Shown here: piece by piece, positions 3,947 to 60,455 of the stretch
Layout: each line of letters starts with the position of its first letter
Numbering within the stretch: position 1 is the stretch's first letter
NCBI GenBank assembly: GCA_025361565.1
Contig: JANYKN010000126.1
Coordinates: 1 to 64,000, forward strand
Reading direction: 5' to 3'
DNA length: 64,000 bases
Source of the DNA: Bacteroidota bacterium
GTDB taxonomy: Bacteria > Bacteroidota > Bacteroidia > Bacteroidales > NBLH01
Notes under the pieces: generated by a model
What the model was told of the DNA's origin: nothing
Database searches by the model: none
Seen by the model: only the letters and a program-made list of their open reading frames with translations
Position numbers and translations under genes: made by a program

Positions 3947-6562
3947 GTGTTTTTAGAAAATCGGAAGTTCAAATTATTGGGTTTTTCATTTTTATTGATA
4001 TTCATTTCAATATCAAATTCCTATGCCCAATATAACAAAAATGAATTCCCATCTCCAGGGACTAATTTTGTTATGGCTAAATCGAAAATATTTCCTCAAC
4101 GAAAAATAACTATCCGAGATTTGGGAAACAATGTTTGGGATTTCTCCATGTTTAATCCTTCAGAGTTTGATACCATCCGGTTAATTGAGCCGAACAAAAC
4201 AAGATATGGAAAACGTTTTCCGGAATCAAATGTTGCAATGGTGATAAATCCGTTGAAAATAGAATATCTTTCAATCGATTCAGGAAATGTATATTTAACT
4301 GGGCTTATTGATGATTTTATGGAGAAAAATTTGCCTGTACTACTCAGCTTTACAGATAAATTATTGTATAAAAATCCTCACCTGGCTATAGATCAGGAAT
4401 ATTCCGATACTTCTACTACTCATTTTGCTGCGCCATATTATCATCTTCCGGGAACAGATTCTATTAAGGCTGATATTTTTTATGTTCGTACAGGAAGAGT
4501 TGATGCTTCGGGAGAATTAATTACTCCACTTGGTAAATATAAGGTTGATCGGGAAGTAATTTTTGTCGAAAAAAGAGTTAGGGGATTCAAATACTCTGTT
4601 TTTGGATGGACTCCAGCACCCGAATATTCATTAGACAAGCATTATACTTTTTACCGATGGTATAACAAAGACAACAAATTACCAATAGCCGAGGCTTATT
4701 TAAACGATCAGGATTTAATTGAATATGTTAGCTATCAATACGATTCGCCGTTAAGGCTTAATTTTACTGGAGATGATGTTTCTTGCAAAGGCGGTTCTAA
4801 TGGGGAGGTGGATTTAACAGTAATCGGAGGAATTCCCGATTATACTTATCAATGGACAAATGGTGCTACCAGTCAGGATTTGAAAGGTGTAAAAGCCGGA
4901 ACATATCGTGTGGTTGTAACTGATAATCGTGGAAGAACAATTTCTTCGTATTACACAGTTTCTGAGCCTATTATAGAATTACAAGCCAGAGTAGATGTTC
5001 AAAATATTAGTTGCCATGGCAATAAAGATGGCAAAGTTCAACTCAATATTCTAGGAGGAAAAGCACCTTATGATTTTGCCTGGTCAAACGATTCGATAAA
5101 CGAAACAATGATAAACCTATCACCCGGGAAAATAAAATACATGGTAATAGATGCAGGTGGTTGCAGGATAGTAGACAGTATTGAAATTACCCAGCCTGAT
5201 AAAAAATTATCTTGTGATTTTGTTGAAAAACATGTTTCGTGTCATGATGGGAATGACGGTTCCGCCGAAGTTTTGCCCGATGGTGGTACTCCTCCATATC
5301 GTTTTTTATGGAGTGATGGCGATACCAGCCGGATTAAAATCAATATGCATGCAGGGCTGCACCAGGTTACTGTTTATGATTTAAACAATTGCAGTTTAAG
5401 TAAAACGGTAACCATCAAACAACCAGAAACTCCTGTTAAAATAGTCAAAGATATCAGACCTGTGAGTTGTTTCGGAGGTAATGATGGAAGCGTTGAACTT
5501 GATGTTTCGGGAGGTAAGGCACCTTATCAGTATTTTTGGTCAGACAGCTCTAACAATAAATATTTAAAGGGATATCCATCAGGAACATACTTAGTGGAAG
5601 TGCTCGATAAAAACGGTTGCATGGTTAAAGAAAGTATCATTATTTCTCAGCCAACTTCAGCACTGCAAATGAAATATGCTAAAAAAGACGTGAATTGTTT
5701 TGGTGGTTTTGATGGAGAAATAACGTTAAATGTAAGCGGAGGAAGCCCACCATATATTTATAATTGGTCAAATAGCTCAGATAAACCTGATTTAAAGAAA
5801 ATTGGAAGAGGAGTTTATACTATTAAATTGAGCGATAAAAATCAATGTAACGTTTCTGAAACTGTTGAAATTTTATCTCCCGAAAAAGCTCTGTTTGCAG
5901 ATTTTGAAAAGAAAGATGTAAAATGCCGCAATGGAAACGAAGGTTCAATTAATTTGACTGTTGAAGGTGGAACTCCCGATTATAAATATGTTTGGTCCAA
6001 TAAATCGACCAACGAGGATTTGGAAGGCATTAAAGCAGGAAATTATGAGGTTACAGTTATCGATAAAAACCTATGCGAAATTAAAAAGACGATTGCGATT
6101 GGGGAGCCTGAAACCCAAATAGAAATTACCTTTGAGAAAATTGATGTGAATTGCCATGGTGAAAAATCCGGATCTATTTATTTGAGCGTAAAAGGAGGAA
6201 AGCCCGGCTATGATTATGAATGGTCAACCGGTGAAAATTCGCCCAGTTTAATTGGGGTGGGGGCAGGAAAATATACTGCAAGTGTTACTGATAATCTACT
6301 TTGTAGGCAATCTAAAATCATTGAGGTTTTTGAACCAGAAAAGCTAAGGATTAAATCAGCGCTTACAAATCCTGATAACGACCAGCAAAATGGTTCAATA
6401 AAAATTGAGGTTTTAGGAGGAACAAAGCCATATTCAATACTTTGGGACAATGGGCTATCAACTAGCGAAGTCAAAAATCTGGGCACCGGAATCCACGAAG
6501 TGCAGATTAAAGACTCAAAAGATTGTATTTTGAATGAAGAGATTGAGTTGAAAGGGAAATAA
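3947..6562 (+). CDS. Secreted SprB-repeat protein
   Basis: 871 aa with signal peptide; 8 tandem repeats of the type DV.C.GG.DG...L.V.GG.PPY.Y.WS.....L. followed by G.Y.V.V.D..GC. Start appears to be GTG. Confidence 0.85.
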   Translation: MFLENRKFKLLGFSFLLIFISISNSYAQYNKNEFPSPGTNFVMAKSKIFPQRKITIRDLGNNVWDFSMFNPSEFDTIRLIEPNKTRYGKRFPESNVAMVINPLKIEYLSIDSGNVYLTGLIDDFMEKNLPVLLSFTDKLLYKNPHLAIDQEYSDTSTTHFAAPYYHLPGTDSIKADIFYVRTGRVDASGELITPLGKYKVDREVIFVEKRVRGFKYSVFGWTPAPEYSLDKHYTFYRWYNKDNKLPIAEAYLNDQDLIEYVSYQYDSPLRLNFTGDDVSCKGGSNGEVDLTVIGGIPDYTYQWTNGATSQDLKGVKAGTYRVVVTDNRGRTISSYYTVSEPIIELQARVDVQNISCHGNKDGKVQLNILGGKAPYDFAWSNDSINETMINLSPGKIKYMVIDAGGCRIVDSIEITQPDKKLSCDFVEKHVSCHDGNDGSAEVLPDGGTPPYRFLWSDGDTSRIKINMHAGLHQVTVYDLNNCSLSKTVTIKQPETPVKIVKDIRPVSCFGGNDGSVELDVSGGKAPYQYFWSDSSNNKYLKGYPSGTYLVEVLDKNGCMVKESIIISQPTSALQMKYAKKDVNCFGGFDGEITLNVSGGSPPYIYNWSNSSDKPDLKKIGRGVYTIKLSDKNQCNVSETVEILSPEKALFADFEKKDVKCRNGNEGSINLTVEGGTPDYKYVWSNKSTNEDLEGIKAGNYEVTVIDKNLCEIKKTIAIGEPETQIEITFEKIDVNCHGEKSGSIYLSVKGGKPGYDYEWSTGENSPSLIGVGAGKYTASVTDNLLCRQSKIIEVFEPEKLRIKSALTNPDNDQQNGSIKIEVLGGTKPYSILWDNGLSTSEVKNLGTGIHEVQIKDSKDCILNEEIELKGK

Positions 6563-10509: not shown

Positions 10510-12392
10510 TCAGGTTTTTTCGATTTTTTTATTGAGATATTTAAATTTTTCAAGGTTTTTTCCAAGGGAATACCATTATCATCATAACCTTTTATACGAT
10601 AATATCTTACAAGCATTTTTTCTAATGGTACAACCCTCTTTTTTTTATCCGACAAGCAAGGTTCTGTAAGAAGGCGTGCAGGCAATGTGTCATCTTTGCT
10701 CGAAATTCCTTCCAATGTATTCATGTACCGTTCCAAAACATGGATTCTTCTTCCAGTTTTAAACATTTGCTTTTGCGACAGCGGAATGCCGGTTATTGCG
10801 CTATAAATTTTATTGTAAAGCGACACATCCAACAATGACAGTGCCACTTTAGCAGCGTATTGCATAGTAAATCCCAGGAGAAATTTCGGTGTGGTTTTAG
10901 CTATAAATGGTTCCAGCATATAAGCATACGAAGTAAACTGACAAGTGTGCATCGAGTTAATTGCCGAAAACATATCTTCGAGATAATCTGTATAAATTGC
11001 TTTGTACCGGGTATTGTTTGGATTCAGCAAACCTAATGAAACTTCCATGGCAAAAACGGTTGCTGAAAGGTGGCAACCACCTCTGTTTGCAACTGCGTAA
11101 CTAAGTCCCTGTCCCCATGAACCCCTTGGATCATAAGCTGATAGCTCCATTCCTTTTACATGCATGGCAAACTCCTTTCCACCATATTTTTCGCTTAACC
11201 ACTTGGTTCCATTGGCAATTTCGTCGCCAATTCCTTTGCGGGATGCAATATTTTCAAGCATTTCGTTAACTCCTGTTGGATTATCAAACCTAAGGTTGGT
11301 AGGCATCAACCCTTTTTCGCTGGCTTCCATTACATACGATAATGTTGTGCCGGTTGAAATGGTATCGAGACCCAAAAGTCCGCATTTGTCGTTCCAATCA
11401 GCAAGTGCTTCTCTGTCGTAGTTGCCTAAATTTGAGCCTAATAGGCCTGTTGTTTCATATTCGGGGAACTGTTTGGTTTTTCCATTGGCAAAATTGCCTT
11501 TATGTCCACAAAGTATTGGACAGGCTTTGCAGGAGCTGAATTTGCTGTCGTGATTTTCTTTATAGCTTTCACCGGATATATTGTATGCCTTATCCGACAT
11601 TCCATCCTGGAAATTATTCACTGGCAAAATACATGCATCATTACTTTTCATAGTGTGTGATGCTGTACCGAATTGTCTATAAAGAATACCGGTATTGTGA
11701 TTGTCATTTATGAATTTAACTGCTTTTTTTGTCAGTTTCTTGAAAGCTTCGGGGTTGGTTGGTGCAATTTTATAAGCCCCTCCATAAGCTACTATTGCCT
11801 TTACGTTTTTTGAACCCATTACCGCACCTATTCCGCCTCGGCCTAAAAACCGGTGACCGGATCTTACATTTGCATATTTTACCAGGTTTTCGCCAGCAGG
11901 GCCAATAACCATTGCTCCATCCTTGGAACTTAATTTAAAATATTCCTGGCTTTCTTCTGTATCTTTTCCCCAAAGAGCAATTGCATCTTCAATGGAAGAT
12001 CCATTTTTGTCAATTTTTATATAAACGGGTTTTTCTGCTTTTCCTTTTATGATCAATCCGTCGTAACCAGCTGTTTTAAATGCCATTCCAAAAGGTCCGC
12101 CACATGAAGAACTAAGCATAATATTGGTAAGCGGCGATTTTGTGACTGCATCAAAACGTGCGCTGCACGGGGCCCCTGTCCCCAAATAAACCCCCATCAT
12201 AAAAATTAGGATGTTTTGTTCTGAAAGTGGATCAATCCCGGCTTCAAGTCTGTCATAATAGAGTTTCAATCCCAATCCTTTTCCGCCAAGATACAATTCA
12301 CGATCTTGCTGGTTTATTGTACTTGTCGATATTTCTCCCGTGGTAAGATTTACTTCAAGTAGCTTATTGCTTGCGCCAGTAATGATTTCCAT
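10506..12392 (-). CDS. Aldehyde ferredoxin oxidoreductase family (AOR) protein
   Basis: 628 aa; 'YLGGKGLGLKLYYDRL', 'GRGGIGAVMGSKNVKAI', Fe-S ligands 'CKACPILC' plus 'CGLLGLDTIS'. Confidence 0.9.
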   Translation of the reverse strand: MEIITGASNKLLEVNLTTGEISTSTINQQDRELYLGGKGLGLKLYYDRLEAGIDPLSEQNILIFMMGVYLGTGAPCSARFDAVTKSPLTNIMLSSSCGGPFGMAFKTAGYDGLIIKGKAEKPVYIKIDKNGSSIEDAIALWGKDTEESQEYFKLSSKDGAMVIGPAGENLVKYANVRSGHRFLGRGGIGAVMGSKNVKAIVAYGGAYKIAPTNPEAFKKLTKKAVKFINDNHNTGILYRQFGTASHTMKSNDACILPVNNFQDGMSDKAYNISGESYKENHDSKFSSCKACPILCGHKGNFANGKTKQFPEYETTGLLGSNLGNYDREALADWNDKCGLLGLDTISTGTTLSYVMEASEKGLMPTNLRFDNPTGVNEMLENIASRKGIGDEIANGTKWLSEKYGGKEFAMHVKGMELSAYDPRGSWGQGLSYAVANRGGCHLSATVFAMEVSLGLLNPNNTRYKAIYTDYLEDMFSAINSMHTCQFTSYAYMLEPFIAKTTPKFLLGFTMQYAAKVALSLLDVSLYNKIYSAITGIPLSQKQMFKTGRRIHVLERYMNTLEGISSKDDTLPARLLTEPCLSDKKKRVVPLEKMLVRYYRIKGYDDNGIPLEKTLKNLNISIKKSKKPE

Positions 12393-24386: not shown

Positions 24387-26669
24387 ATGATTCGAATTCT
24401 TTTTATCTCAATATTTTTTAGCCTTTTTGAATTCATTGCATTATCTCAAAATGAAGCATTTCATGGTGGAATTGCTGATGGGTTTGGATATCAATCAAGC
24501 ACGGCAATTAATATGTCGCAGGTAGGTTTTATTGGTAATAATTTAACCGTCACTGTCAATCAGGCATCTGGGCAATCAGATCCTGCAAGCCAGGAGCCAG
24601 TCCTTTTTACAGTAGTTTTTAGCGAAAATGTGACTGATTTTGATATATCGGATATCGTAATTACGGGTTCAGCTAATCCTCAAAATATTGCAATAATTGG
24701 CAGCGGTGCTAATTATACCATTCAATTGAGTGGAATTGTTTCAAATGGTGATATAGGGGTCAATATTCCACAAGGAGGTATACATAATTCAGTTGGTAAT
24801 CCCAATCAAAGTGCCACGAGCTTAGATAATGTATTAATATACAATGGTATACCAATGTCAGTAAAAATTAAACTTGCGGATGGACAACCATTGATAAGTA
24901 ATTTGCACACGGTACATTATGCAGTTAATTTTTCTGAAAGTGTTAATGATTTTATTGCCAGCGATGTTTCCTTTTCAGGAACTGCAGTTCCTTCAGCTGT
25001 TAATATCACTGGTTCCGGAAAAACCTATGATGTTGCGGTTTCTGGAATGGCAAATGATGGAACTGTTGTAATAACAATTCCGGCAGACAAGGCACATAAT
25101 AATTTAGGCTCACCAAATACTGCATCTGTAAATACTCAGAACACAATTACATGTGATTATACCAATCCAACGGTTCAAATTACTTACTCAAATGGTCAGC
25201 AAAGCCCCAGCCTTTCCGGAATATTAAAATTTGACGCATCGTTCTCAGAAAGTATTCAATCTTTGCAAGCTGCGGATATACAACTATCTGGTACAGCAGG
25301 TGCAACATCAATTGCAATTTCGGAACACTTAAATATCTTTACCATATCAGTAAGTGGAATGACACAGCAGGGAACCGTAATCGTTTCCATTGATGCAAAT
25401 AAAGTTTTTGATATAGCAGGCAATGGGAATATGGCTTCTGTTAACATACAGAATGAAATAATCTATCAAAATATTGAATTTGCTGTTGAAATTACCTTGC
25501 CAATTGATCAGAAAAAATATACAAATGGAAATACTGCTCGTTTTAATATTCATTTTAATCGTACTGCCAGCGATTTTGATGTATCAGATATTAGTATAAG
25601 TGGAAGTGGTCATGCAAATATCTCAAGTTTAACAGGTAGTGGATCAGACTATTTATTAACCCTTTCCGGTATTAATTCAGATGGCAATTTTATAATCAAT
25701 TTATATGCAAATAAGGTACATGATGAATACAATAATACAAATACTGCATCAGTAAATACAGATAATGAGATAGTTGTTGACACAAAAGCCCCTTTTGCCC
25801 AGATTGATCTCGAACATTTGCAAAGCAATCCTACAAATAAGCCGCAGGTAACTTTTGTAGTTACGTTTAGTGAAGAAATTGAAGATTTTACGTCAGAAGA
25901 TGTTCAGCTAGCTGGCACTGCCGGTTCTGGAAATATGGTAATCCAGGGATCAGGAACGGTATATAAAGTTATAGTTTCCGGAATGAATCAGGATGGAGAT
26001 ATTAGCATCACAATTCCAATCAACAGTTTTAAAGATTTGGCTGGCAATTTCAACACTTCCACAGTAATTATAAATAATGTAATTTATTATGATAAAACCA
26101 ATCCATATGTTGAAATAACAAAGGCGCTTAATCAAGCAGATCCGGCTATGATATTACCTTTAAATTTCCACGTTGAGTTTAGTGAGGATGTGTTGGAATT
26201 TGGAGCAGACAGAATCAGCTTTGGAGGTTCTACGGGGGTTTATCTTGTTACTAGCGGCTCGGGTAAAAGTTACAATGTTGCTGTTTTTGGAGTACAAACC
26301 AATGAAACAATCTTAATTTATATACCCGCCGCTGCTGTGCATGATTTAGCAGGGAATCCGAATAATTCGTCTGTAAATACTTCAAATTCAATTACATATA
26401 TTGGATTGACATCAGTTGATAATATAGATGCATCAAAGAAATGCTCAATTTATTTTGCAAATGGAAATATAAATGTAGAATTTACAACAATCCCTGGCCA
26501 AAACAGCAAAGTCAATATTTATGATATTCAAGGGAAATTGATTTTTAGTAAAGCTGGCCTTAATCAATTAAATCAATTCCCTGTGGGCAATTTGAACTCT
26601 ATTTATCTTATAAAAGTTTTGGATGGAAAAACCCAAAATAATAAAATGATTGTTCCTTTTAATTACTAA
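24387..26669 (+). CDS. Secreted Ig-like repeat protein with T9SS type A-like C-terminal domain
   Basis: 760 aa; six ~100-aa repeats (V.FSE.V.DF...D....G.A......I.GSG..Y.V.VSGM..DG...I.IPA...HD..GN.N.ASVNT.N.I.Y); C-terminus 'VNIYDIQGKLIFSKAG...FPVGNLNSIYLIKVLDGKTQNNKMIV'. Confidence 0.83.
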   Translation: MIRILFISIFFSLFEFIALSQNEAFHGGIADGFGYQSSTAINMSQVGFIGNNLTVTVNQASGQSDPASQEPVLFTVVFSENVTDFDISDIVITGSANPQNIAIIGSGANYTIQLSGIVSNGDIGVNIPQGGIHNSVGNPNQSATSLDNVLIYNGIPMSVKIKLADGQPLISNLHTVHYAVNFSESVNDFIASDVSFSGTAVPSAVNITGSGKTYDVAVSGMANDGTVVITIPADKAHNNLGSPNTASVNTQNTITCDYTNPTVQITYSNGQQSPSLSGILKFDASFSESIQSLQAADIQLSGTAGATSIAISEHLNIFTISVSGMTQQGTVIVSIDANKVFDIAGNGNMASVNIQNEIIYQNIEFAVEITLPIDQKKYTNGNTARFNIHFNRTASDFDVSDISISGSGHANISSLTGSGSDYLLTLSGINSDGNFIINLYANKVHDEYNNTNTASVNTDNEIVVDTKAPFAQIDLEHLQSNPTNKPQVTFVVTFSEEIEDFTSEDVQLAGTAGSGNMVIQGSGTVYKVIVSGMNQDGDISITIPINSFKDLAGNFNTSTVIINNVIYYDKTNPYVEITKALNQADPAMILPLNFHVEFSEDVLEFGADRISFGGSTGVYLVTSGSGKSYNVAVFGVQTNETILIYIPAAAVHDLAGNPNNSSVNTSNSITYIGLTSVDNIDASKKCSIYFANGNINVEFTTIPGQNSKVNIYDIQGKLIFSKAGLNQLNQFPVGNLNSIYLIKVLDGKTQNNKMIVPFNY

Positions 26670-33241: not shown

Positions 33242-33325
33242 TACCCAGAGCCGGGGTCGAACCGGCACTCCGGTGAAGGAACTGGTGTTTGAGACCAGCG
33301 CGTCTACCAATTCCGCCATCTGGGC
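33242..33325 (-). tRNA. tRNA-Leu (anticodon CAA)
   Basis: Reverse complement GCCCAGATGGCGGAATTGGTAGACGCGCTGGTCTCAAACACCAGTTCCTTCACCGGAGTGCCGGTTCGACCCCGGCTCTGGGTA; A/B boxes, variable arm, loop CT-CAA-AC. Confidence 0.93.
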
Positions 33326-37955: not shown

Positions 37956-40900
37956 ATGAAACAATTTAACATCACAAAATCAATGGAACTTTTTAATCCA
38001 AAACATAAAATAATGAACAATAATTCAATGAATTTTAAAAAATATTTAATGCACTTTGCTTTGGTTTTTGCACTGGCTATGGTGTGGGGGCAGAGTTGGG
38101 GGCAAAAAACTTGGGATGGTGGAGGCGATGGAGTCAATTGGAGTAGTGCCAATAATTGGAATCCTAATGGTGTGCCGGCTTTAGGAGATGCAGTTACAAT
38201 TTCTAATAGCGGTACTCTTTCAGTTACTGTTGATGGGAACTATTCCTGCAATAGCCTTGCATTAACTTATTCAGGAAATAATAATGGAACAATAACATTA
38301 TCAATACCTGCAACAAGAAGTTTGTCCGTTACAAATGGAATTGGTTATATAAACAATAATAATGGAGGTGAAAATGTGAATCTTGATGTAGCTGGTGGTA
38401 CCCTATCATGTGCAGCTATGACATTTAATGATACTGGTGTAGGTACTGATGATAGTTACCTTTCAATATCAAATGCCTCAAGTGTTGTAAATGTTAGTGG
38501 AAATATCACAATGAGTGGCATTGATGCAAGAAGAACTTACATTTTATTCACAGCTAATGGAACATTAAATATTGCAGGTGGATTTGTTACGAATGGTTTT
38601 ATCACTAGTACTTCAGGAGGGGGCAATCCTGCTCCAGCTCCAACATCTGGTATTGTTAATTACAATAATGCTGGTGTTCAAACAGTATGGCCAACTACCT
38701 ATTACAATTTACAAGTTTCAGGCAGTGGTACCAAAACATTGGGAGGAAATACAATTGTAAATAGTCAATTAACTTTAACCGCAGGCACCCTCGCTGTTGA
38801 TGTAAATACGCTTTCTTTAAACGGACCAACAATAGCAGGGACACCAAGTAATTTAGCCACTACTGCATTTTCAAGCCTTTCATTTGGGGGATCTTCAACT
38901 GGTATAAATATTCCTTCAAGTGTTGCAGATTTGAATAACCTGACGCTAAATAATAACGCTGCCAATGCGCAAATTACAATGAACAGCAATATTACACTTG
39001 CAGCAGGTGGTACATTAACTTTAACAAGAGGAGATCTGGTCACTGGTTCAAACTATATTGCAGTAACCAATACTGCTGTTGGTGCAATAGCTGGTAATTC
39101 TGCTAATTCATACATTTATGGTACATTAAGACGAACGTTGCCTATCCTAACGTCATCTGGCATCTATAATTTTCCAATAGGGGAAGCCACAACTTATAAT
39201 GCCTATCTATTAGAAAGCATTACTACTACAGCAGTTACTGTTATCGAAACAACTGTAACAAGTTCACCAGCTGCAACAACCGGTGATGGAACAACCATTG
39301 GTGGCTTATTGCCAAGAAATTGGCATGCAAGCGTTATCAGTGGGGCTTTTACCGATGCCAATATCAGATTAACAGATGCCACTGTGCTTGGAAATGTGGT
39401 AGGTGTTTGTGCCACTCAAACCGGAGCTTATACTTCTATTGGTGGTACAGTAGCTGTTGGTAGCACTGTGGTTTCTATTGCTAAATCTTCTTTGCCCAAC
39501 TATTTTGCCATTGGTTCAACATTGATTAAAACATTTTATTCCTATCAAAATGGTAATTGGACAGATAAAACTACCTGGACAATAGATCCATCAGGTACAA
39601 CAAATGTAAATAATTACATTGCAGGCTCTGATTATCCAAAGACTGGCGATATAGCATATATCCTTAATGGGCGAACAGTTACTGTTGACGCAAATACTCA
39701 AGCAACAACCCAATTAAATATTGAATATGGAGGTGTTCTTAATTTAGCTGCTACTACCGGGCATAATTTTGGTATAGTAAGCGGACAAGGTTTGATTAGA
39801 ATTAATTCCGTAACATTTCCAGGTGGAACATTTACTAACTTTGTTTCATCAACAGGTGGAACAGTTGAATATTATGATGTTACAGGTAATTTACCTGCTC
39901 AAACAAACTATAATAATTTACTTTTAACAAACAGTACTACAAATAACTATAATTTAGTTTTAACAAATCCTTCAAATCCTGTTGCATATAATATTAATGG
40001 TTATTTTAAAATACAGCAAACAGGTGCTGGAACACTTACTAATACTTTAGGCAGTGTTGCTACAAATGTAATAAATCTGACTGTTTATGGTGATTATACA
40101 GTTGGAGCTGGATGTAGTGTTCTACTTGGTGCGGCTTTTAATGGCTTGCATACTATAAATTTATATGGAAATTTTTCCAATAACGGGACTTTTGATATTA
40201 ATGACAATACAGATTATCTTAATAATACAAACGGTGCTGCAATTCTCACATTTTTTGGTTCAACTGATAATACCGTTTTGGTAAATACTACAACTGCTTT
40301 CTATGCTTTTAGAGTTAACAAAGGTGTCGATCAAACATATATCGTTTCAATTACTGGCAATGCTTCGGGATGTGATCCATTTAAAGGCTACGATGCATAT
40401 GATAATATTGGCAATCTAAATGGAAGATTAACAATTTCAATCATAAATGGTACGTGTCGCTTAGGAAGCAATCTTAATATTGCTAATTTAACGGGAGATC
40501 AAGCCTCTGGGTTTTTTATAGGTTGCAAAGTAAATGGAACGACTATTGATGGTACAGGCTGTCTATGGATAGATGGTGCAACTGTCAATGAAAATTCAGG
40601 TTACATAGCCGTATATGGAAAGCTTCGATTGAGTGCTGGAACTCTGGATGCTACTGGAGATCAGATGATTTTTCGTCAGGAATGCCAGGTGTTAGTTGAA
40701 GGAACAGGTGTTTTAACTCTTGATCAAATTAGACCTTCAACTTCTGATCTTAGTCCAAAAGGTAGTTATATTCAAACTGGAGGAATAGTAAATGCTCAAG
40801 GAAATAATGGAACCACTGATTATCCTTCTTTTTGTGTGCCTTATCCAACTCAATCTTTCAAGATGACTGGTGGTGTTTTAAATGTTAATAGGGCTCAAAC

Positions 40901-43900
40901 TGGCGGGACAGCTACTAATGGCGGGATTCTTATTAATTGCAATAATTATGAAGTTACTGGGGGTACTGTTAATGTGACATCTGCAAATAGTAATTTTACA
41001 ATTAATTCAATTGCTCCATTTTATAATTTGAATTTGTACAGATCTGCTAATAATGTGCAATTGGCTAATCAGAATTGGCGTGATAACTATGGTACTTATA
41101 CTGTAAATGCTCAACCTCTGATTATTTTAAATAAGTTATACATTGATGGTGCCAGTAGCACAGTGTTTAATGCCAATGGAAATAACGTTACTGTTGGCGG
41201 TGATTTTATTATTCCTGCTAATGCAACGTATACTCCAGGCGCAAACACTACTAAGTTAAATGGAGTTTCCGGTCAGGAATTTCAAATTAATGGAACTATT
41301 ACCAGTGGCTTACAAAATTTAACTTTGTCAAATACTTCAGCCACTGTTTTAACAGCTACAACTGTTCCAAAAACGTTAACCATAAATGGAGTTTGGACTA
41401 TTAGCTCTCTTTGTAGTATAGATGATAATAGTAACACCATAGTTGCGAAGGGAAATGTTTTCAATTCAGGAACGCATAGCAGTAGTGGAAGTGGTAAAGC
41501 TATGTTAAATGGTACTGCCACTCAGCAAATATCTGGTGATGGAAATGGAATTTTTGGAAACTTAGAATTGAATAATTCGGTTGCGGCAGGGACTGATGCC
41601 GCAAAGTTTTATGCAAATCAAATAGTTACAAAAACATTAACATTATCATCAGGTATTTTAAATATAGATATTTATAAACTGAGTTTATACGATAATCCAT
41701 CCTCTTCAATAGTTGTTGCTTCACCGGGTGCAAATAAAATGATAAAAACTGCGGGTAATCAATCCGATGGCGGCATTATGAAAGTCTATTCTTCCACAGG
41801 GAATAGTTTTACTTTTCCAATTGGAACATCTTCTGGTTATTCGCCTGCCGTTATTGCTGTTACTGCTTCTACTTATGGAAATATATTAGTGAAGCCTGTA
41901 AATGGCGCCCAACCTTATGCAAAAGATTCTCCAGCTGGACATCCTTTATTGAAATATTGGAAAGTTAGTAGTGAATATTTTGCTGGAGTTAGCGCAGTTA
42001 CACAATCTTATTATTACAATATACCAGGGGAGCTATCAACTGGAAGCACTGAGTCAAATTATGAAAGTCAAGTTTGCAGGAATTTTCAATGGTACACCCC
42101 AGATCCTCTGGTTGCAGTAGATTTGGTAAATCATAAAGCTGATTTTACAACTGCTAAATTTGGTGCAATTATAGATGGAGATTATACCGCTGGCCAGCCC
42201 GATGCTTTTTTGGCCATTGTGAAATTTTACAGTAAAAAAAGTGGTAATTGGGTTGATGGCAACTCAGCAACCAATCCATGGTCAAATATAAGTAATTTAG
42301 GTACGGATAATCTTACAACCTCACCAGGACCTGATAATCCTGTTATTATTGGCGATGGAATTCTTAATCATACAATAACAATTACAACCAGTGGCCGATC
42401 TTCAGGCAGTCTAATTTTAAATTCAGGTTCTGTTTTGGATTTAGGAACAACAACAGGGCATAATTTTGGCGCATTGCCCAATCAGGTTGTTGGTGGTGCA
42501 GGAAAACTACGAATTTCTAGAGGTACAAGCGATGGAACAGCAGAATTTCCTGCAGGTGATTTTGGAGCATTTATAGGAAATGCTGGTGGAACAGTTGAAT
42601 ATTATACAAGTGGATTTAATTTAATAGTTCCTCCGGTTTCAGTAAATACTCCTACAGCCCTTAATTTAACTACCTATAACAACTTAAATTTGATGGCAAC
42701 TAGTGGTAATTCTATAACCATGCCAGATATTAATATGACTGTTTTCAAGAATTTGACAGTAGGTAGTTCATCTTTTACAAATAGTGTACTGTTAAATTCT
42801 ACAAGTGCAAAGAGTTTGACAATAAATAACAATTTAAATATTAATGGAGGGAGCCTTCAATTTAACAATATTAACGCGCAAACAGTAACCGTAGGGAATA
42901 ATGTAACTATAGCAAGCGGAGCTACTTTTGAAGCCTTAAATAATGCAAATGCAGTTTGTGCAAATACATTAACAGTATCTGGGAATCTTACAAATAATGG
43001 AACATTAACATTTCTTGCAGGAACCCGCTATTGTGATTTAATTTTTAAAGGAAATACCGATAACAGTTTTACTGGTACAACAGGAGTTGGAACAACACTT
43101 AATATGTTGACCATTAACAAAGGAACAACACAAAATTCCGTTTTAACGATGGATCTTTCTGGTACATTAAATACACTCACAAACAGCTGGCTTACCATAT
43201 CCAATGGAACATTTAGATTTGCAGTGCCTTCAAAATCAATTACTTTAACAAATGTTGCTGCAAATACATATACTATACCTTCTACTGCATGTTTATCTAT
43301 AAATGCTACAGGAGCCATTATAAATATTGGTAATAATGCCAATGATTTATCCGATTTGCTTTTGTCAGGAAAACTTGAGGTGAAAAATGGTACAATCAAT
43401 ATTGGCCGACCTGTAATGACTGATGTTTTCAACAACGATATCGAATATGCATCTGCAGGTTCACCCGAAATAAGTATTACTGGTGGATTTCTTAATGTTA
43501 ACGGACAAATTCGCGATAATTATAGCAATAATGCCGGAGCAATTATTTACAACCAATCTGGTGGCGATGTTACTATTTGGGGACACCATTCTTTGGTTGC
43601 ATCCACACCAACTGTTCCAAACTCCATCGATAAAGCCAAACTGATGATTTATAATCAGGGCAGCATTTTTAATATGTCTGGTGGTAATATAATCATTAAA
43701 ACCGGAGGTGGTGCAATATTTAATGATTTATATCTAAGACCAAGTGCAACCTCTGTCACAGGAGGAACAATAAAATTTGATGCTGCTTTAACTGGTGCAG
43801 ATCAAACTACAATGACGATGGATGCAGATGTTCCATTATTTAATTTAATTATTACAGGTACAACTTATTTTTCTAAACTAACTTTGAAAGTAGATCCTCT

Positions 43901-46900
43901 AATCTTATTGGGTAGTTTAACAATCGATGCAAGTAATTCTTTTATAACCTCAAATTTAAATGTAAATATTGGCTCTAATTTTACCAACTCAGGAACTTAT
44001 ACACCTGGAACAAATACTACAACGTTTAATGGAAATGGTTTGCAGGATATTACTTGTAACAATGCAACAACTTTTAAGAATTTAACAATCAATAAAAATT
44101 CTGGAACAGCTGATTTATTAGGAACTATTGATCCTATTGTAAGTAGTACTTTTAGTTTATCAAATGGAATTTTTGATACAAAAGATCGTAATTTTTATGT
44201 CTATGGAGATGTTGTTAATAGTGGAACTCATGTAAGTACAGGTATTGGGACTTTCTTTTTGCAAGGTTCTTCAAAACAATATATATCGGGAAACGGATTC
44301 GGTAGTTTTGCGAAAGTGACAATAAACAATTCAAATGGAATCGAATTAAGCAATGATATATCAATTACCAGGCTGCTGACTTTCCAGAGTGGAATGTTGT
44401 ATATTGATAAGAATCTTTTAACATTTACCGAAACGGCTCCCATCCCTTCCGGTTATGATGCAAGTAAATTTATAACAACCAGTGGGGTAGCCAGTGATGC
44501 TGGTATTCGTAAAATATTTACAGTTGGAACAGGTCCATTTTCATTTATTTATCCAATAGGAACACTGGCATCCGGAAGTAATAAATTCACTCCGGTTTCA
44601 TACACACTTACTGGTATATCTGGTACAACTCCTTATATACAGGTTCGGCCTATAAATTCAAAACACCTTGCGACAACTGCGGCAGCTATTACTGAATTGA
44701 AGTATTATTGGAATGTAACAACTTCTGCGGGTTTTGCTGCTACTGCTTTTTCACATATTTATACTTATTTACAAAGTGATGTACAGGGCACCGAAAGTTC
44801 GTATTTTGGTGGTAGATTGCCAATTAGTACTGCAGTTTGGCAACACGATGGAACTGTTGATTATTCGAACCATAACGTTACATTTACTAATTTTACATAT
44901 ATTTCAGGTGATTATACTGCAGGAGAATTACCTGAATTTGGGACTATTGATACTTATTACAGCAGAAATGCTACATCTGGGGGCAATTGGACAGATCCAA
45001 ATTCATGGTCAATAACCGGTCATGGTGGGGCATCAAATGGAACTTACCCACAAGGTAATCCGGTTATTATTGCATCAGGTCATACCATCACTTCTACTGC
45101 AAATGGCTGTTCTTCAATAAACCTGCAACTATTAGGAAGACTTGATTTACTTGCCACCAACAGTCATAATTTTATTTCTATGAATGGGAGTGGATGGTTG
45201 CGGTTTGACCCAAATATTTCTGGAGCTTTTGTTTTTCCTGGAGGTGATTTTACTCCATTTATGAATACCTCTGGTTCAACCGTTGAATATAGTTCAACAG
45301 GAGGAGTTACCATATCTCCTGTAATTAGTATTTATCAAAATCTTTATCTTTCTGGAGGAGGAATTAAATCATTGGCAAACGTAGATTTACTGATTCAGGG
45401 CAATTTAACCCTGGCTTCTACTTGCGGTCAATTTACCAATGCAGGTTACAATAAGAATATAATCATATATAAAGATTGGTTAAATAATACTACCACTCCT
45501 TACATCCCTGGTTCAGGAACAGTTACTTTTTCTGGATCAACGTCTCAAACTATTGCAGGTACTGGTACAATCAGTGCTCCAGGGGAATCTTTCAACAATG
45601 TTATTGTTAACAATTCAGCGGGGCTAAGCCTAAGTAGAAACATCAATATTGCCAAAGATTTGACAATAAATTCAGGTGGTTCATTTTCTGCCATTGGATC
45701 TAGTACCGTTTCAATTCAAGGAAACTGGGTTAATAATTCCACTACAACCTTTTCTTCAGGCTCAACAGTTAATTTTAATGGAACTTTAGCTCAAAGTGTT
45801 TCAGCGGTTTCAGGTGAAACATTTAATAATTTAACAATCGGAAATCCGACTGGTTTAACGTTAAATTGTAACACTACAGTTTCAGGAAATATTGATTTTA
45901 CTTCAACTGCCGATTCCCGTAAATTGATGATTGGAGCGAATCTACTTAATTTATCATCGACATTAGGAACGATTTCAAATGCAGGATCAAATAAGTTTAT
46001 ACAAACCAATGGACTGGCTGGTGATGCGGGAATTATTAAAAGTTTAACAAGTCCTTATAATTTCACTTTTCCAATTGGTGTAAGTACTAAATATACACCT
46101 GCACAATTTAGCGAAACTTCGGCAGGACAAAGTGGCACAATTAAAGTTATTCCTGTAAATTCAAAACATCCTTATGCAAATAATAATCTTACCGATGAAT
46201 TGAAATTTTATTGGATTGTTAGCACAATGGGCCTTGTACCTGTCAATGTTACACATACATATACTTTTGTAGCAAGTGATGCCTTGCCAAGTACCGCATC
46301 TTATGTTTCAGGCCGATTTTTAAGTAACCAATGGACTCCTGTTTTGGGTGGTGAAACTGGAACATCAATTGCTGGTTCTAACCTTATATTTACAAGTAAA
46401 AATTATATAGACGGTGAGTTTACTTGTGGTGTTTCAACTAATTTTGGTATTTTAAATACTTATTACTCCAGAGATCATGCGCCTCTTATTACTACTGGTG
46501 CTGACTGGAGGACTTTATCAACTTGGTCAACGTTAGGGCATTCTGATGATCTTCATATTCCTAATACATTGCCAAATGCTAATTCAGTAATTATAAAAAC
46601 TGGGCACAAAGTTGTTTCATATGATCCTGGAATAAACATATCAAATCTTACTCTCAATGGAGATTTACAGCTTAATGCAACTGCAAGTCACGATTTTGGA
46701 AGTGTTACCGGCACAGGAAAGCTTTCGTTAAAAAACAATGTGACAGGTCAATTTGTTCTGCCAACTGCAAATTTAACAAGCTTTACTTCCGCAACAGGTG
46801 GAACTATTGAATATGACGGAGCAGGTGATTTACCGGCTGTCAGTACATATAACAATCTGCTGCTTTCTGGTATTGGTACAAAGAATATTCCCAATCAGAA

Positions 46901-49900
46901 CCTGATCCTTAACGGAAATTTACAAATTGCAGCAGGTCAGTTAAATAATGGATTTGGTATCGATATTACAATTAAAAAGAATTGGATTGACAATGTTTCT
47001 TCTGGTGGTTTTACTTCTCTTGCAGGTAAAGTTTCTTTTAATGGAACAATAGCACAATCTATAACAAGTACTGTAAATACAAAATTCTATAACTTGGAAA
47101 TAAACAATTCAAATGGACTAACATTGATCAACCCAGTTGAAATTACTAATAATCTAATTTTAACGCTTGGTAAGATTAATACCACTTTAGCCAACTCATT
47201 AACTTTATCTAATTCAAATTCGAATATTGTTTCAGGAGCAGGTTTAGGAACAACATCTTTTGTTAATGGTCCATTGAAGAAAAATATTGGTGCAACAGGA
47301 GGTTTTACGTTCCCAATAGGGGTTGGTAATACTTATGGTCCGGCTACCTTGAGCAATGCAGATGCAGATGTTTGGCAGGCACAATATTATTTAGGTGGAT
47401 ATAATTCATCTTCAGCATATTTTGCTGATCCAATTATTGAAGTCAGCAACACCGAAAACTGGATAATTAAAACTACATCTATAGATGGAAATGCAATTGC
47501 TACATTGCCTTATGGTTCAAGTGGTATTATTTCTAAGTGGGTGGTTTTGGATTATAATAATCCATTTTGGACAAACACCCCTGGCTCAACAATAAATACT
47601 GCTAATGGAACTGTTTCTAGCAATGCGCAGACAACTTTTACAACTGCAACTGATAAGTATTTTACCGTAGGTTCTACCAATTTGACAAAATGGATTGGTG
47701 GCATTTCAGTTAATTGGTTTGATCCCAATAATTGGAGTACTGTTTCTGTTCCAACTTCAACTGATAATGTCAAAATTTCATATGTTGATGCTTCTCATCC
47801 GCTTCATTTTCCTGATATTTCAACAACAGGGCCAGCAATTTGTAATAATATTACAGTTGAAAATAATGCAATTTTAGTGGTATCTGGTACTGGCAATTTA
47901 GATGTTTATGGTAATTGGGTAAATAATACAGCGCCTGCAATTAATGCTGTTTCAATGAGTAATACGTCAACTGTATCTTTTAAAGGAACAACTGCAATTT
48001 CAGGTACAGCAGAAAATACTTTCGGAAATATTTATATTAATGGATCGCTTACAGGTCCTTCAGGAAACATGAATATCACTGGTAATTGGACAAATGCAGG
48101 AGCCAGTAATTCATTTTCTGCTAACAGTACTTCAACAGTTGTATTTAGGGGTGCAACAAATCAGACCATTCAAACCGCAAATGTTGAGACTTTTAACAAT
48201 GTAACAATAAATTCGGGAGCAAATGTTAGTATTTCATCTGCGTCATATGTAACTTTAAATACACTTGTTAATAACGGTACTTTAACGTTGAAGTCAGACG
48301 CAGCCCGAACAGCATCCATGATACAAACTATTGGTTCTGTGCAGGCAACGGTTGAAAGATTTGTCGCTGGAAACAAGTGGCACTTTATGTTTGCGCCACT
48401 TTCAGCTATTCCAACAACAATTTATAAAACCGAAGGTACTTCTACAAATTATAATCTTTATTCATATCTGGAGCCGAATGCTGATTATTGGAATGCAACT
48501 TCGGTTTATGGCACAACTGGTTGGGCAGCCGAATATTCAAACACCAATCTTCCAAATTTAAAAGGGTATATTTTTAACAGATATGGATTACCTGATAAAA
48601 CCTATGTTCAGACTGGGGGAAATTTATGGGTAGGACCTAAAGTTTTTACTATTTCCAAAACAAATCATGCTCCTGCAACAATTGGGAATGGCTGTATAAA
48701 TGATTGGAATTATTATGATGGTTGGAATTTAGTTGGTAATCCATATGCTTCGGCAATTAATTGGGATTTGGTTGATAAAACAAACATTGAGGATGTTGTT
48801 TATTGTTATGATGGTACTCAGGGTAAATACGCTTATTATGGAATTGATCCTTATTCCGGGATAGGAATCTCGGTTAATAATGGATCTAAATATATTCCTT
48901 CAGGCCAAGGTTTTATGGTTAAATCAAAAGGTACAGGAACAACATTTACATTAAAAGATGCTGACCGGGTACATAATGCCCAACCATTCTGGAAAAGTAG
49001 TAAATCGATTTCTTCCAATGATACAAAATCATCATTAACAGATAATCAATCAATTGCTCCAAATTTTTTAAGATTGCAGATAAATTCAGGAACTTACACC
49101 GATGAGTCGGTAGTGCGTTCACTTCCTGCAGAGTCTGGCGTTACTGATAATCACGACGGTAATTTTGATGCACGGAAAATGTTTGCATGGGACAAAACAG
49201 TTCCACAAATTTTTACTGCTAATGCTGATTTTTCAAATGTTTTTGCAATTAATTCAATGACAGAAGTGGTTGCAAGCAAACAAGTTCCTGTTGGATTGTA
49301 TGTTGGCACTGCAGGTAATTATTCAATTGATTTCAGCCAAAATACTTTTGATGGTATTCATGTTTATCTCGAAGACAAAGTAACAAATACTTGGACAAAT
49401 ATCAGAACAACGCCTTCTTATGCATTTAATTCAGCGGTAGGTACTTTTACTGCACGTTTTGTGTTGCATTTTAATCAAAATCATGCACCTGTTGCAAATA
49501 ATATCCTTGAAAAACAAGTTGTTGACGAAGAGGTTCCTTTTATTTTTATATCCAATGTTAATTTTACTGATGAAGACCAGGGGGATATAGTAACATGCAC
49601 CGCTTCTTATGAAAATGGAAATCCATTGCCTGCATGGTTGAAGTTTGACGCAACATCACATTCCTTCAGCGGAACTCCTTCAAACAATGACGTGGGTACT
49701 TACACAATTAAATTAACAGGTACTGATTTATTGAATGCTCAAACTTCAACAAATTTCATTCTTGAAGTTAGGAATGTAAATGATTCGCCTGTATTGTCGA
49801 ATGCTATTGTAAATCAAACAACAAATGAAGATGCTGCATATAGTTTTAATATTCCTGCTAATACTTTTACTGATATCGATGCTGGTGATATTCTTACTTA

Positions 49901-50621
49901 TACAGCAAAAATTCCTTCATGGATGCAATTTGATCCGGCTACCGGAAATTTCAGTGGTACTCCATCGAACAGTGATGTAGGTTCATGCAATATTACCATT
50001 ATGGCAACTGATAATTTCGGTGCAAATGTTTCAGATGTATTTTCGTTAGAGGTTGTCAATGTGAACGATGCACCCATATTAAATGGACAGGTTCCTGATC
50101 AGGCAATTGAAGTAAATACAAGCTTTGATTACACTCTGGACCAAAATCTATTTGTTGATATTGATTTTGGTGATGAAATTACATATACTGCAAAATTGGC
50201 TGATGGAAGTGTATTACCAAGCTGGCTGAATTTTGATGGACTTAGTCGCAGGTTTACAGGGACAGCTATAGATCTTGGAGATTTATCTATAGTTTTATTA
50301 GCTACCGATAAATTTGGAGCAAGTGCATCCGATGAGTTTATGTTGTCTGTAAAGAATGCAACTGGAATAGGAACATTGAATACTATAGAAGTATCGATAT
50401 ATCCAAATCCAACAAAAGGTCGGTTCTTTGTTGAAACATCGAGCTTTACTGGTGAAATGAGGTTGATTGTTCGTAACAACGATGGAAAAACTGTTTTCGA
50501 GCAAAAAGGAGTGCGCGATACAAACGAAATCAACTTAACTGGTTTCGCTGATGGTGTTTACTTTATAGAATTGACAGATGGAATAGAAAGCAAAGTACAC
50601 AAAATTGTACTGAATAAATAA
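37956..50621 (+). CDS. Giant T9SS-sorted modular surface/adhesin-like protein (4221 aa)
   Basis: Single uninterrupted ORF. Signal peptide near MNFKKYLMHFALVFALAMVWGQSWGQ (start may be internal); recurring [FY]YS..GNW.D...W, FPIGT and HNFG modules; three cadherin/putative-Ig-like domains (NHAPVANNIL..., NVNDSPVLSN..., NVNDAPILNG...); C-terminal 'VSIYPNPTKGRFFVE...GVYFIELTDGIESKVHKIVLNK' T9SS type A sorting domain. Confidence 0.9.
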   Translation: MKQFNITKSMELFNPKHKIMNNNSMNFKKYLMHFALVFALAMVWGQSWGQKTWDGGGDGVNWSSANNWNPNGVPALGDAVTISNSGTLSVTVDGNYSCNSLALTYSGNNNGTITLSIPATRSLSVTNGIGYINNNNGGENVNLDVAGGTLSCAAMTFNDTGVGTDDSYLSISNASSVVNVSGNITMSGIDARRTYILFTANGTLNIAGGFVTNGFITSTSGGGNPAPAPTSGIVNYNNAGVQTVWPTTYYNLQVSGSGTKTLGGNTIVNSQLTLTAGTLAVDVNTLSLNGPTIAGTPSNLATTAFSSLSFGGSSTGINIPSSVADLNNLTLNNNAANAQITMNSNITLAAGGTLTLTRGDLVTGSNYIAVTNTAVGAIAGNSANSYIYGTLRRTLPILTSSGIYNFPIGEATTYNAYLLESITTTAVTVIETTVTSSPAATTGDGTTIGGLLPRNWHASVISGAFTDANIRLTDATVLGNVVGVCATQTGAYTSIGGTVAVGSTVVSIAKSSLPNYFAIGSTLIKTFYSYQNGNWTDKTTWTIDPSGTTNVNNYIAGSDYPKTGDIAYILNGRTVTVDANTQATTQLNIEYGGVLNLAATTGHNFGIVSGQGLIRINSVTFPGGTFTNFVSSTGGTVEYYDVTGNLPAQTNYNNLLLTNSTTNNYNLVLTNPSNPVAYNINGYFKIQQTGAGTLTNTLGSVATNVINLTVYGDYTVGAGCSVLLGAAFNGLHTINLYGNFSNNGTFDINDNTDYLNNTNGAAILTFFGSTDNTVLVNTTTAFYAFRVNKGVDQTYIVSITGNASGCDPFKGYDAYDNIGNLNGRLTISIINGTCRLGSNLNIANLTGDQASGFFIGCKVNGTTIDGTGCLWIDGATVNENSGYIAVYGKLRLSAGTLDATGDQMIFRQECQVLVEGTGVLTLDQIRPSTSDLSPKGSYIQTGGIVNAQGNNGTTDYPSFCVPYPTQSFKMTGGVLNVNRAQTGGTATNGGILINCNNYEVTGGTVNVTSANSNFTINSIAPFYNLNLYRSANNVQLANQNWRDNYGTYTVNAQPLIILNKLYIDGASSTVFNANGNNVTVGGDFIIPANATYTPGANTTKLNGVSGQEFQINGTITSGLQNLTLSNTSATVLTATTVPKTLTINGVWTISSLCSIDDNSNTIVAKGNVFNSGTHSSSGSGKAMLNGTATQQISGDGNGIFGNLELNNSVAAGTDAAKFYANQIVTKTLTLSSGILNIDIYKLSLYDNPSSSIVVASPGANKMIKTAGNQSDGGIMKVYSSTGNSFTFPIGTSSGYSPAVIAVTASTYGNILVKPVNGAQPYAKDSPAGHPLLKYWKVSSEYFAGVSAVTQSYYYNIPGELSTGSTESNYESQVCRNFQWYTPDPLVAVDLVNHKADFTTAKFGAIIDGDYTAGQPDAFLAIVKFYSKKSGNWVDGNSATNPWSNISNLGTDNLTTSPGPDNPVIIGDGILNHTITITTSGRSSGSLILNSGSVLDLGTTTGHNFGALPNQVVGGAGKLRISRGTSDGTAEFPAGDFGAFIGNAGGTVEYYTSGFNLIVPPVSVNTPTALNLTTYNNLNLMATSGNSITMPDINMTVFKNLTVGSSSFTNSVLLNSTSAKSLTINNNLNINGGSLQFNNINAQTVTVGNNVTIASGATFEALNNANAVCANTLTVSGNLTNNGTLTFLAGTRYCDLIFKGNTDNSFTGTTGVGTTLNMLTINKGTTQNSVLTMDLSGTLNTLTNSWLTISNGTFRFAVPSKSITLTNVAANTYTIPSTACLSINATGAIINIGNNANDLSDLLLSGKLEVKNGTINIGRPVMTDVFNNDIEYASAGSPEISITGGFLNVNGQIRDNYSNNAGAIIYNQSGGDVTIWGHHSLVASTPTVPNSIDKAKLMIYNQGSIFNMSGGNIIIKTGGGAIFNDLYLRPSATSVTGGTIKFDAALTGADQTTMTMDADVPLFNLIITGTTYFSKLTLKVDPLILLGSLTIDASNSFITSNLNVNIGSNFTNSGTYTPGTNTTTFNGNGLQDITCNNATTFKNLTINKNSGTADLLGTIDPIVSSTFSLSNGIFDTKDRNFYVYGDVVNSGTHVSTGIGTFFLQGSSKQYISGNGFGSFAKVTINNSNGIELSNDISITRLLTFQSGMLYIDKNLLTFTETAPIPSGYDASKFITTSGVASDAGIRKIFTVGTGPFSFIYPIGTLASGSNKFTPVSYTLTGISGTTPYIQVRPINSKHLATTAAAITELKYYWNVTTSAGFAATAFSHIYTYLQSDVQGTESSYFGGRLPISTAVWQHDGTVDYSNHNVTFTNFTYISGDYTAGELPEFGTIDTYYSRNATSGGNWTDPNSWSITGHGGASNGTYPQGNPVIIASGHTITSTANGCSSINLQLLGRLDLLATNSHNFISMNGSGWLRFDPNISGAFVFPGGDFTPFMNTSGSTVEYSSTGGVTISPVISIYQNLYLSGGGIKSLANVDLLIQGNLTLASTCGQFTNAGYNKNIIIYKDWLNNTTTPYIPGSGTVTFSGSTSQTIAGTGTISAPGESFNNVIVNNSAGLSLSRNINIAKDLTINSGGSFSAIGSSTVSIQGNWVNNSTTTFSSGSTVNFNGTLAQSVSAVSGETFNNLTIGNPTGLTLNCNTTVSGNIDFTSTADSRKLMIGANLLNLSSTLGTISNAGSNKFIQTNGLAGDAGIIKSLTSPYNFTFPIGVSTKYTPAQFSETSAGQSGTIKVIPVNSKHPYANNNLTDELKFYWIVSTMGLVPVNVTHTYTFVASDALPSTASYVSGRFLSNQWTPVLGGETGTSIAGSNLIFTSKNYIDGEFTCGVSTNFGILNTYYSRDHAPLITTGADWRTLSTWSTLGHSDDLHIPNTLPNANSVIIKTGHKVVSYDPGINISNLTLNGDLQLNATASHDFGSVTGTGKLSLKNNVTGQFVLPTANLTSFTSATGGTIEYDGAGDLPAVSTYNNLLLSGIGTKNIPNQNLILNGNLQIAAGQLNNGFGIDITIKKNWIDNVSSGGFTSLAGKVSFNGTIAQSITSTVNTKFYNLEINNSNGLTLINPVEITNNLILTLGKINTTLANSLTLSNSNSNIVSGAGLGTTSFVNGPLKKNIGATGGFTFPIGVGNTYGPATLSNADADVWQAQYYLGGYNSSSAYFADPIIEVSNTENWIIKTTSIDGNAIATLPYGSSGIISKWVVLDYNNPFWTNTPGSTINTANGTVSSNAQTTFTTATDKYFTVGSTNLTKWIGGISVNWFDPNNWSTVSVPTSTDNVKISYVDASHPLHFPDISTTGPAICNNITVENNAILVVSGTGNLDVYGNWVNNTAPAINAVSMSNTSTVSFKGTTAISGTAENTFGNIYINGSLTGPSGNMNITGNWTNAGASNSFSANSTSTVVFRGATNQTIQTANVETFNNVTINSGANVSISSASYVTLNTLVNNGTLTLKSDAARTASMIQTIGSVQATVERFVAGNKWHFMFAPLSAIPTTIYKTEGTSTNYNLYSYLEPNADYWNATSVYGTTGWAAEYSNTNLPNLKGYIFNRYGLPDKTYVQTGGNLWVGPKVFTISKTNHAPATIGNGCINDWNYYDGWNLVGNPYASAINWDLVDKTNIEDVVYCYDGTQGKYAYYGIDPYSGIGISVNNGSKYIPSGQGFMVKSKGTGTTFTLKDADRVHNAQPFWKSSKSISSNDTKSSLTDNQSIAPNFLRLQINSGTYTDESVVRSLPAESGVTDNHDGNFDARKMFAWDKTVPQIFTANADFSNVFAINSMTEVVASKQVPVGLYVGTAGNYSIDFSQNTFDGIHVYLEDKVTNTWTNIRTTPSYAFNSAVGTFTARFVLHFNQNHAPVANNILEKQVVDEEVPFIFISNVNFTDEDQGDIVTCTASYENGNPLPAWLKFDATSHSFSGTPSNNDVGTYTIKLTGTDLLNAQTSTNFILEVRNVNDSPVLSNAIVNQTTNEDAAYSFNIPANTFTDIDAGDILTYTAKIPSWMQFDPATGNFSGTPSNSDVGSCNITIMATDNFGANVSDVFSLEVVNVNDAPILNGQVPDQAIEVNTSFDYTLDQNLFVDIDFGDEITYTAKLADGSVLPSWLNFDGLSRRFTGTAIDLGDLSIVLLATDKFGASASDEFMLSVKNATGIGTLNTIEVSIYPNPTKGRFFVETSSFTGEMRLIVRNNDGKTVFEQKGVRDTNEINLTGFADGVYFIELTDGIESKVHKIVLNK

Positions 50622-60116: not shown

Positions 60117-60455
60117 ATGAAAGAGTCAAGAGTTATCATATTCTTATTAGTTCTAAATTTGGTCGCTTTTAATGCTTATAGTCAGGATATAAGTTATAAT
60201 GAAAAAGAGATTAAGGATGCTTTAATTTATCCTAATCCGCTGATCGGAGAAAAGTTTATGATAAAATCTGAATCAGCAATATCCAAAATTGAAGTAGTAA
60301 ATGTTATAGGAAAGGTTATTAACCGAACAGAAAATACAAATTTTGAATTAAAAGAAGTACAAGTTTTTGTTGGAAAATGTGAAAAGGGAATTTATTTTAT
60401 TAAAATTACCTTTGACGATAAGAAATCGATAGTAAAGAAGTTACTGGTAAAATAG
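60117..60455 (+). CDS. Small secreted protein consisting largely of a T9SS type A-like sorting domain
   Basis: 112 aa; signal peptide '...LVAFNAYSQ' then 'ALIYPNPLIGEKFMIKS...IEVVNVIGKVI...CEKGIYFIKITFDDKKSIVKKLLVK'. Confidence 0.78.
   Translation: MKESRVIIFLLVLNLVAFNAYSQDISYNEKEIKDALIYPNPLIGEKFMIKSESAISKIEVVNVIGKVINRTENTNFELKEVQVFVGKCEKGIYFIKITFDDKKSIVKKLLVK

Follow-up and report, generated by a model that had tools for sequence, protein, structure and literature searches.

A giant protein with type IX secretion signals from a Bacteroidales genome, built of diverged and positionally conserved modules

Substrates of the type IX secretion system (T9SS) that carry a type A C-terminal sorting domain (CTD) are PorV-dependent and become covalently attached to the surface or are released, and those with a type B CTD use the PorP/SprF shuttle (PMC10202324, PMC9143113, PMC12618676). 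SprB, a giant T9SS-dependent surface protein of the Bacteroidota, has a type B CTD and uses SprF (PMC12635249, PMC10202324). The protein described here would be a giant of the same kind, but it has a type A CTD, no sprF adjacent to its gene and no match to the SprB repeat in Pfam. RemA and RemZ of Flavobacterium johnsoniae resemble it in being large modular proteins with a signal peptide, a type A CTD and expected surface exposure; by Pfam, however, only the CTD is in common, and the body of the giant consists of predicted beta-helix/FPIG units. A predicted long beta-helix is also the point of likeness to type V passengers (Hbp, Ag43, EspP) and phage tailspikes, which lead a weak list of Foldseek matches. 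Against this, no structural or sequence match to them is significant, the giant has repeated rods with beta-sandwich caps, and Pfam finds in it no C-terminal beta-barrel translocator of the type V kind, its C-terminus being a T9SS CTD. Finally, dystroglycan-type cadherin (He_PIG) domains occur in three copies ahead of the CTD, yet they account for only about 280 of the 4221 residues.

One frame of nested super-repeats

The giant is encoded on the forward strand of the window (the whole 64,000-nucleotide stretch of DNA that was analysed), as are all its parts listed below, by a single frame running without internal stops from the ATG at 37956 to the stop at 50621 (4221 aa, about 445 kDa, pI 5.0). 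M25 (nt 38028), directly 5′ of the putative signal peptide MNFKKYLMHFALVFALAMVWGQSWGQ (38028 to 38105) read by eye from the sequence, is the likelier true start. The gene stands alone, between an FHA protein upstream and a nucleoside-recognition protein downstream, which are unrelated and both on the opposite strand.

The body begins with unit 0 (aa 51-526; 38106 to 39533), composed of a W-header (WDGGGDGVNW...NNW), a solenoid and the first FPIG domain, and missing in shorter relatives. It is followed by the super-repeat units A (aa 527-1423; 39534 to 42224) and B (aa 1424-2333; 42225 to 44954), of a long type, and C (aa 2334-2835; 44955 to 46460) and D (aa 2836-3244; 46461 to 47687), of a short type; unit C is extra in relation to the giants compared, and unit D has a variant FPIG domain. 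Within unit B, conservation is highest in a core (aa 1776-2036; 43281 to 44063), which is the family marker used below (A9). Then come a second W-header (WIGGISVNWFDPNNW) with a short solenoid (47688 to 48275) and the FAPLSA / GWNLVGNPYASAINWD module (48333 to 49355), whose GNPY motif recurs in only two other loci, L051 and L056. The C-terminal end is formed by three He_PIG (PF05345) cadherin/Ig-like domains with approximate boundaries (49539 to 50375; Pfam 1.7e-43) and the T9SS type A CTD (PF18962/TIGR04183; 50397 to 50609; Pfam 1.4e-9, NCBIfam 3.9e-9), whose scores exceed the cut-offs of both libraries.

FPIG or YPIG is found at aa 406, 1287 (in unit A), 2199, 2705 and 3119 (nt 39171, 41814, 44550, 46068 and 47310), and the FYS..GNW header at aa 527, 1424 and 2334 (nt 39534, 42225 and 44955); YYSRDHAPLITTGADW at aa 2836 (nt 46461) is a fourth, less clear header. 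The super-repeats measure 897, 910, 502 and about 409 aa. When tiles of the protein were compared with the protein itself, off-diagonal matches reached 2e-27 at shifts of about 897-934 and about 500-508 residues; the best self-match in five shuffles with local composition kept was 1.6e-4. Every unit has the same order of elements (header, HN/DFG solenoid, GTVEY, LTLSSG, FPIG, YTAG) at an identity between units of 25-35%, and an insert of about 430 aa common to units A and B is absent from C and D. The first-pass annotation had thus been right about the single 12.7-kb frame, the super-repeats of about 2.7 and 1.5 kb, divergent in sequence and constant in order, and the different C-terminal assembly (FAPLSA module, three cadherin/Ig-like domains, CTD), and its FPIG and [FY]YS..GNW positions were correct within about a dozen bases.

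An artefact in which the assembly had collapsed several genes into one frame is unlikely, because the copies differ at more than 60% of residues, because the frame is uniform in GC and GC3 and because equally spaced giants occur in dozens of independent assemblies.

The three He_PIG domains and the CTD are all that Pfam and NCBIfam cover. No family of either library matched the roughly 3,800 N-terminal residues above cut-off, and the super-repeat lies outside Pfam coverage, so that it is not made up of existing Pfam repeats. The G8 domain (PF10162) gave one weak partial match (aa 557-600, E 0.11), below cut-off, and reached E<0.01 in only 1 of 43 homologous unit-D segments from relatives; among these 43 segments no Pfam family was found in more than one member, the matches being single and weak. 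A sequence search of solved structures returned relatives of the CTD and of dystroglycan, a weak gamma-carbonic anhydrase match and nothing else, and no ligand-binding domain was identified by homology. PHROGs gave no match to the giant, and a phage origin was rejected on this ground.

A family of giants with modules fixed by position

Close homologues of the giant are common across Bacteroidota genomes. The alignment of the window's own repeats (A3) was too diverged to seed a scan, and alignment A4 was used instead. Homologues were retrieved at 52 loci, which belong to Bacteroidales, to other Bacteroidota (Hymenobacter, Chitinophaga, Carboxylicivirga, Perlabentimonas, Flammeovirgaceae and Cyclobacteriaceae) and, in one case, to Chloroherpetonaceae (Chlorobiota). 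Of 393 genomes from the window's order, 78 (about 20%) had the unit-B core marker, as did 23 of 396 from the phylum and 5 of 7 from the genus. Within the order, the repeat occurs in giant frames of relatives, many of about 2900-5400 aa, and most giants space their modules by about 900, 930 and 425 residues, the last spacing being longer in some. Family giants often stand in tandem, two or three about 10 kb apart (L123-L136).

The identity of the modules follows their place in the chain. An IQ-TREE phylogeny was built with 74 modules taken from 20 giants; three label changes, the minimum, suffice for the four positional classes, compared with a mean of 38 for shuffled labels and 69 for species labels. 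In a FastTree phylogeny with 172 modules from 48 giants, the position label changes 8 times, and shuffled labels change 94 times on average. Support for the position clades is 79-96%, with only one of the four starred. This grouping indicates that the modules diverged before these lineages did and have since escaped homogenisation. The modules of the window protein fall with or nearest to the relatives' classes m3, m2, m1, m1 and final, in this order. Two of them are nearest to the last full class and are 39% identical, which makes unit C an old extra copy; none of the other 47 giants tabulated has this extra full module.

As each unit keeps its identity and its place along the chain, the giant looks more like an assembled machine than like copies loosely strung together. 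The usual view of surface giants is that of chains of repeats that can replace one another; in this family, the repeats are older than the sampled lineages and positionally fixed across Bacteroidota and Chlorobiota. The suggestion of an undescribed repeat family, made in the first-pass annotation, accordingly holds in so far as no model exists in Pfam, NCBIfam or PHROGs, and falls short in that the units are more than a repeat family, being positionally fixed and diverged modules of a widespread family of giant proteins. "Undescribed" here means without a family model in these three libraries; in that sense the family is undescribed, and its kind, the T9SS surface giant, is already known. No prior description of the family was found in the literature consulted, mainly open-access papers without preprints. 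Most of the giant's length has no entry in the three libraries, and with models of the header, the unit-B core and the FPIG domain, annotation would extend to thousands of residues in each genome.

In the tree of the unit-B core, two old groups are seen, and the window copy and that of L056, a Bacteroidales MAG contig (JAFGWC01) of the same genus, fall in different ones. The FPIG unit also exists alone, in stand-alone secreted proteins of about 365 aa that combine a single solenoid and a single FPIG domain with a CTD-like end (L143, G000:C35:33000-50000, at 5058-6146 and 10637-11710; also L018 and L020); in three genomes, repeat proteins resembling YadA heads and S74 chaperones are encoded beside them.

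Predicted fold, export and candidate role

Two tiles of the giant were modelled with AlphaFold from 42-43 aligned homologues. The unit-B tile (aa 1416-2475; pLDDT 89, pTM 0.76) is predicted to form a long beta-helix and an FPIG beta-sandwich, and this model and that of the unit-D tile (aa 2682-3299; pLDDT 84, pTM 0.78) both have regular short solenoid strands, then the FPIG beta-sandwich and then the following solenoid, with lower confidence at the rod-to-cap hinges. Foldseek found nothing at E <= 0.001 for the models in PDB and BFVD, so it is the predicted strand pattern that places the fold in the beta-helix class; among the weak PDB matches that lead the list for unit B, most are beta-helices (tailspikes, Hbp, Ag43, EspC and EspP). 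From these models we infer that the units are beta-helix rods joined by FPIG caps into an articulated chain. Of the very long beta-helical fibre proposed earlier, the beta-helical solenoids are retained in the prediction; one continuous helix is not, because every unit ends in an FPIG beta-sandwich. About 110 coils of 0.48 nm together with the caps would give the rods a reach of perhaps 70-100 nm.

The T9SS export proposed at first reading agrees with the putative signal peptide and the type A CTD, and also with the genome, where SprA_N was found (E 1.1e-178) in a frame of 2496 aa. At least 67 type A CTDs are present in this genome, and neither type B model (PF13585/TIGR04131) matched the giant in Pfam or NCBIfam. 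The chain would pass the inner membrane via Sec and the outer membrane through the type IX translocon (SprA), directed by the type A CTD. By analogy with other type A substrates, the CTD would then be removed, and the protein would either become attached to surface lipopolysaccharide or be released. Once outside, the chain would fold into rigid beta-helix rods that start with the FYS..GNW header, end with the FPIG beta-sandwich and are joined end to end, the three He_PIG domains linking them to the anchor. The rods probably bear distinct binding surfaces, for adhesion or ligand display, rather than forming an interchangeable stalk, since each unit keeps its identity and rank across the phylum. 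On balance, we consider it fairly likely that the giant is a T9SS-exported surface adhesin or ligand-binding beta-helix rod anchored by its type A CTD.

A passive stalk could have the same architecture: its beta-helix units would only provide length, and binding would be left to the terminal He_PIG, FAPLSA or N-terminal domains. He_PIG domains are a typical feature of adhesins, and the window protein gained unit C by duplication without any other visible change. This reading is nevertheless unlikely, given that the units are only 25-44% identical while their rank is kept across the phylum, and that parts of the unit-B core are better conserved than the header and FPIG parts, whereas variation among relatives is greatest in the N- and C-terminal parts.

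The conservation of the unit-B core could alternatively reflect a cell-surface enzyme, with long beta-helices like those of polysaccharide lyases or hydrolases, in which unit B would hold the catalytic groove. The beta-helix is the fold of many catalytic tailspikes and lyases, tailspikes head the weak Foldseek list, and the core has conserved polar residues (E1830, Y1831, Q1851, R1853, Y1865, Q1867 and N1900). Yet Q-I-R and Y-x-Q are present in unit A too and may therefore be structural ladders, and no lyase or hydrolase of Pfam matched the window protein or the 43 segments of its relatives. Moreover, at two positions where 96% of aligned members have R and E, the window copy has R1854 replaced by D (43515 to 43517) and E1897 by M (43644 to 43646); having lost two conserved polar residues, its unit B may have changed in function. 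An enzyme is for these reasons improbable. A mobile gliding adhesin of the SprB kind, which the giant size, the T9SS signals and the nine or ten PorP/SprF homologues of the genome (all on other contigs) might suggest, is more improbable still, since the CTD is of type A and not type B, the flanking genes are unrelated and read from the opposite strand, and SprB given a type A CTD in F. johnsoniae is secreted but immobile or released (PMC12618676).

Two endings on one body

The window protein has a type A CTD, as do 21 relatives with a complete C-terminus; Hymenobacter (L023/L024) is an example of this ending. Another 16 giants with a complete C-terminus end instead in P-x-TGPxYHxxN or a near variant, to which NCBIfam has no match; Perlabentimonas gracilis (L033) represents this class, in which tandem giants are common. 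Downstream of the giant at four loci (L028, L034, L069 and L071) come small secreted proteins, one or more in number and at least one of them bearing the giant's tail, and after these a type B CTD protein and PorP/SprF; in L034, L069 and L071, the tail-bearing small proteins belong to no Pfam or NCBIfam family. In a further region (G591), a small tail protein, a type B protein and PorP/SprF lie about 12 kb downstream. CTD-less giants and small secreted proteins with a common tail were also seen in the G591, G677, G706, G630 and G492 regions, in L123-L130 and in L133-L134.

On the tree of the body, there are seven switches between the two endings, at least six of them forced by starred branches. 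These repeated switches suggest that what is conserved and does the work is the body, and that one ending can be exchanged for another. As a tentative possibility, the giant may be the largest part of an undescribed surface assembly, in which the tail would act as a new signal for docking or sorting, linked to T9SS, and the CTD-less giants would be exported or assembled on a PorP/SprF platform, the window protein being a stand-alone version that uses its type A CTD. The presence of two endings on one conserved body turns the export and assembly of the CTD-less giants into a testable question. The idea that the PxTGPxYH system is present in the window genome too was set aside, as the DNA of this genome has no exact match to TGPxYH, a search that diverged tails could escape.

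Other giant frames with type A CTDs are present in the same genome (G000:C71:140958, 4495 aa, and 152033, 3529 aa); by the unit-B marker they are not members of the family. Within the window, two more frames have a type A CTD match, one of 760 aa (24387 to 26669) and a short one of 123 aa (60225 to 60449), and the only Rfam match is a tRNA gene on the minus strand (33242 to 33325).
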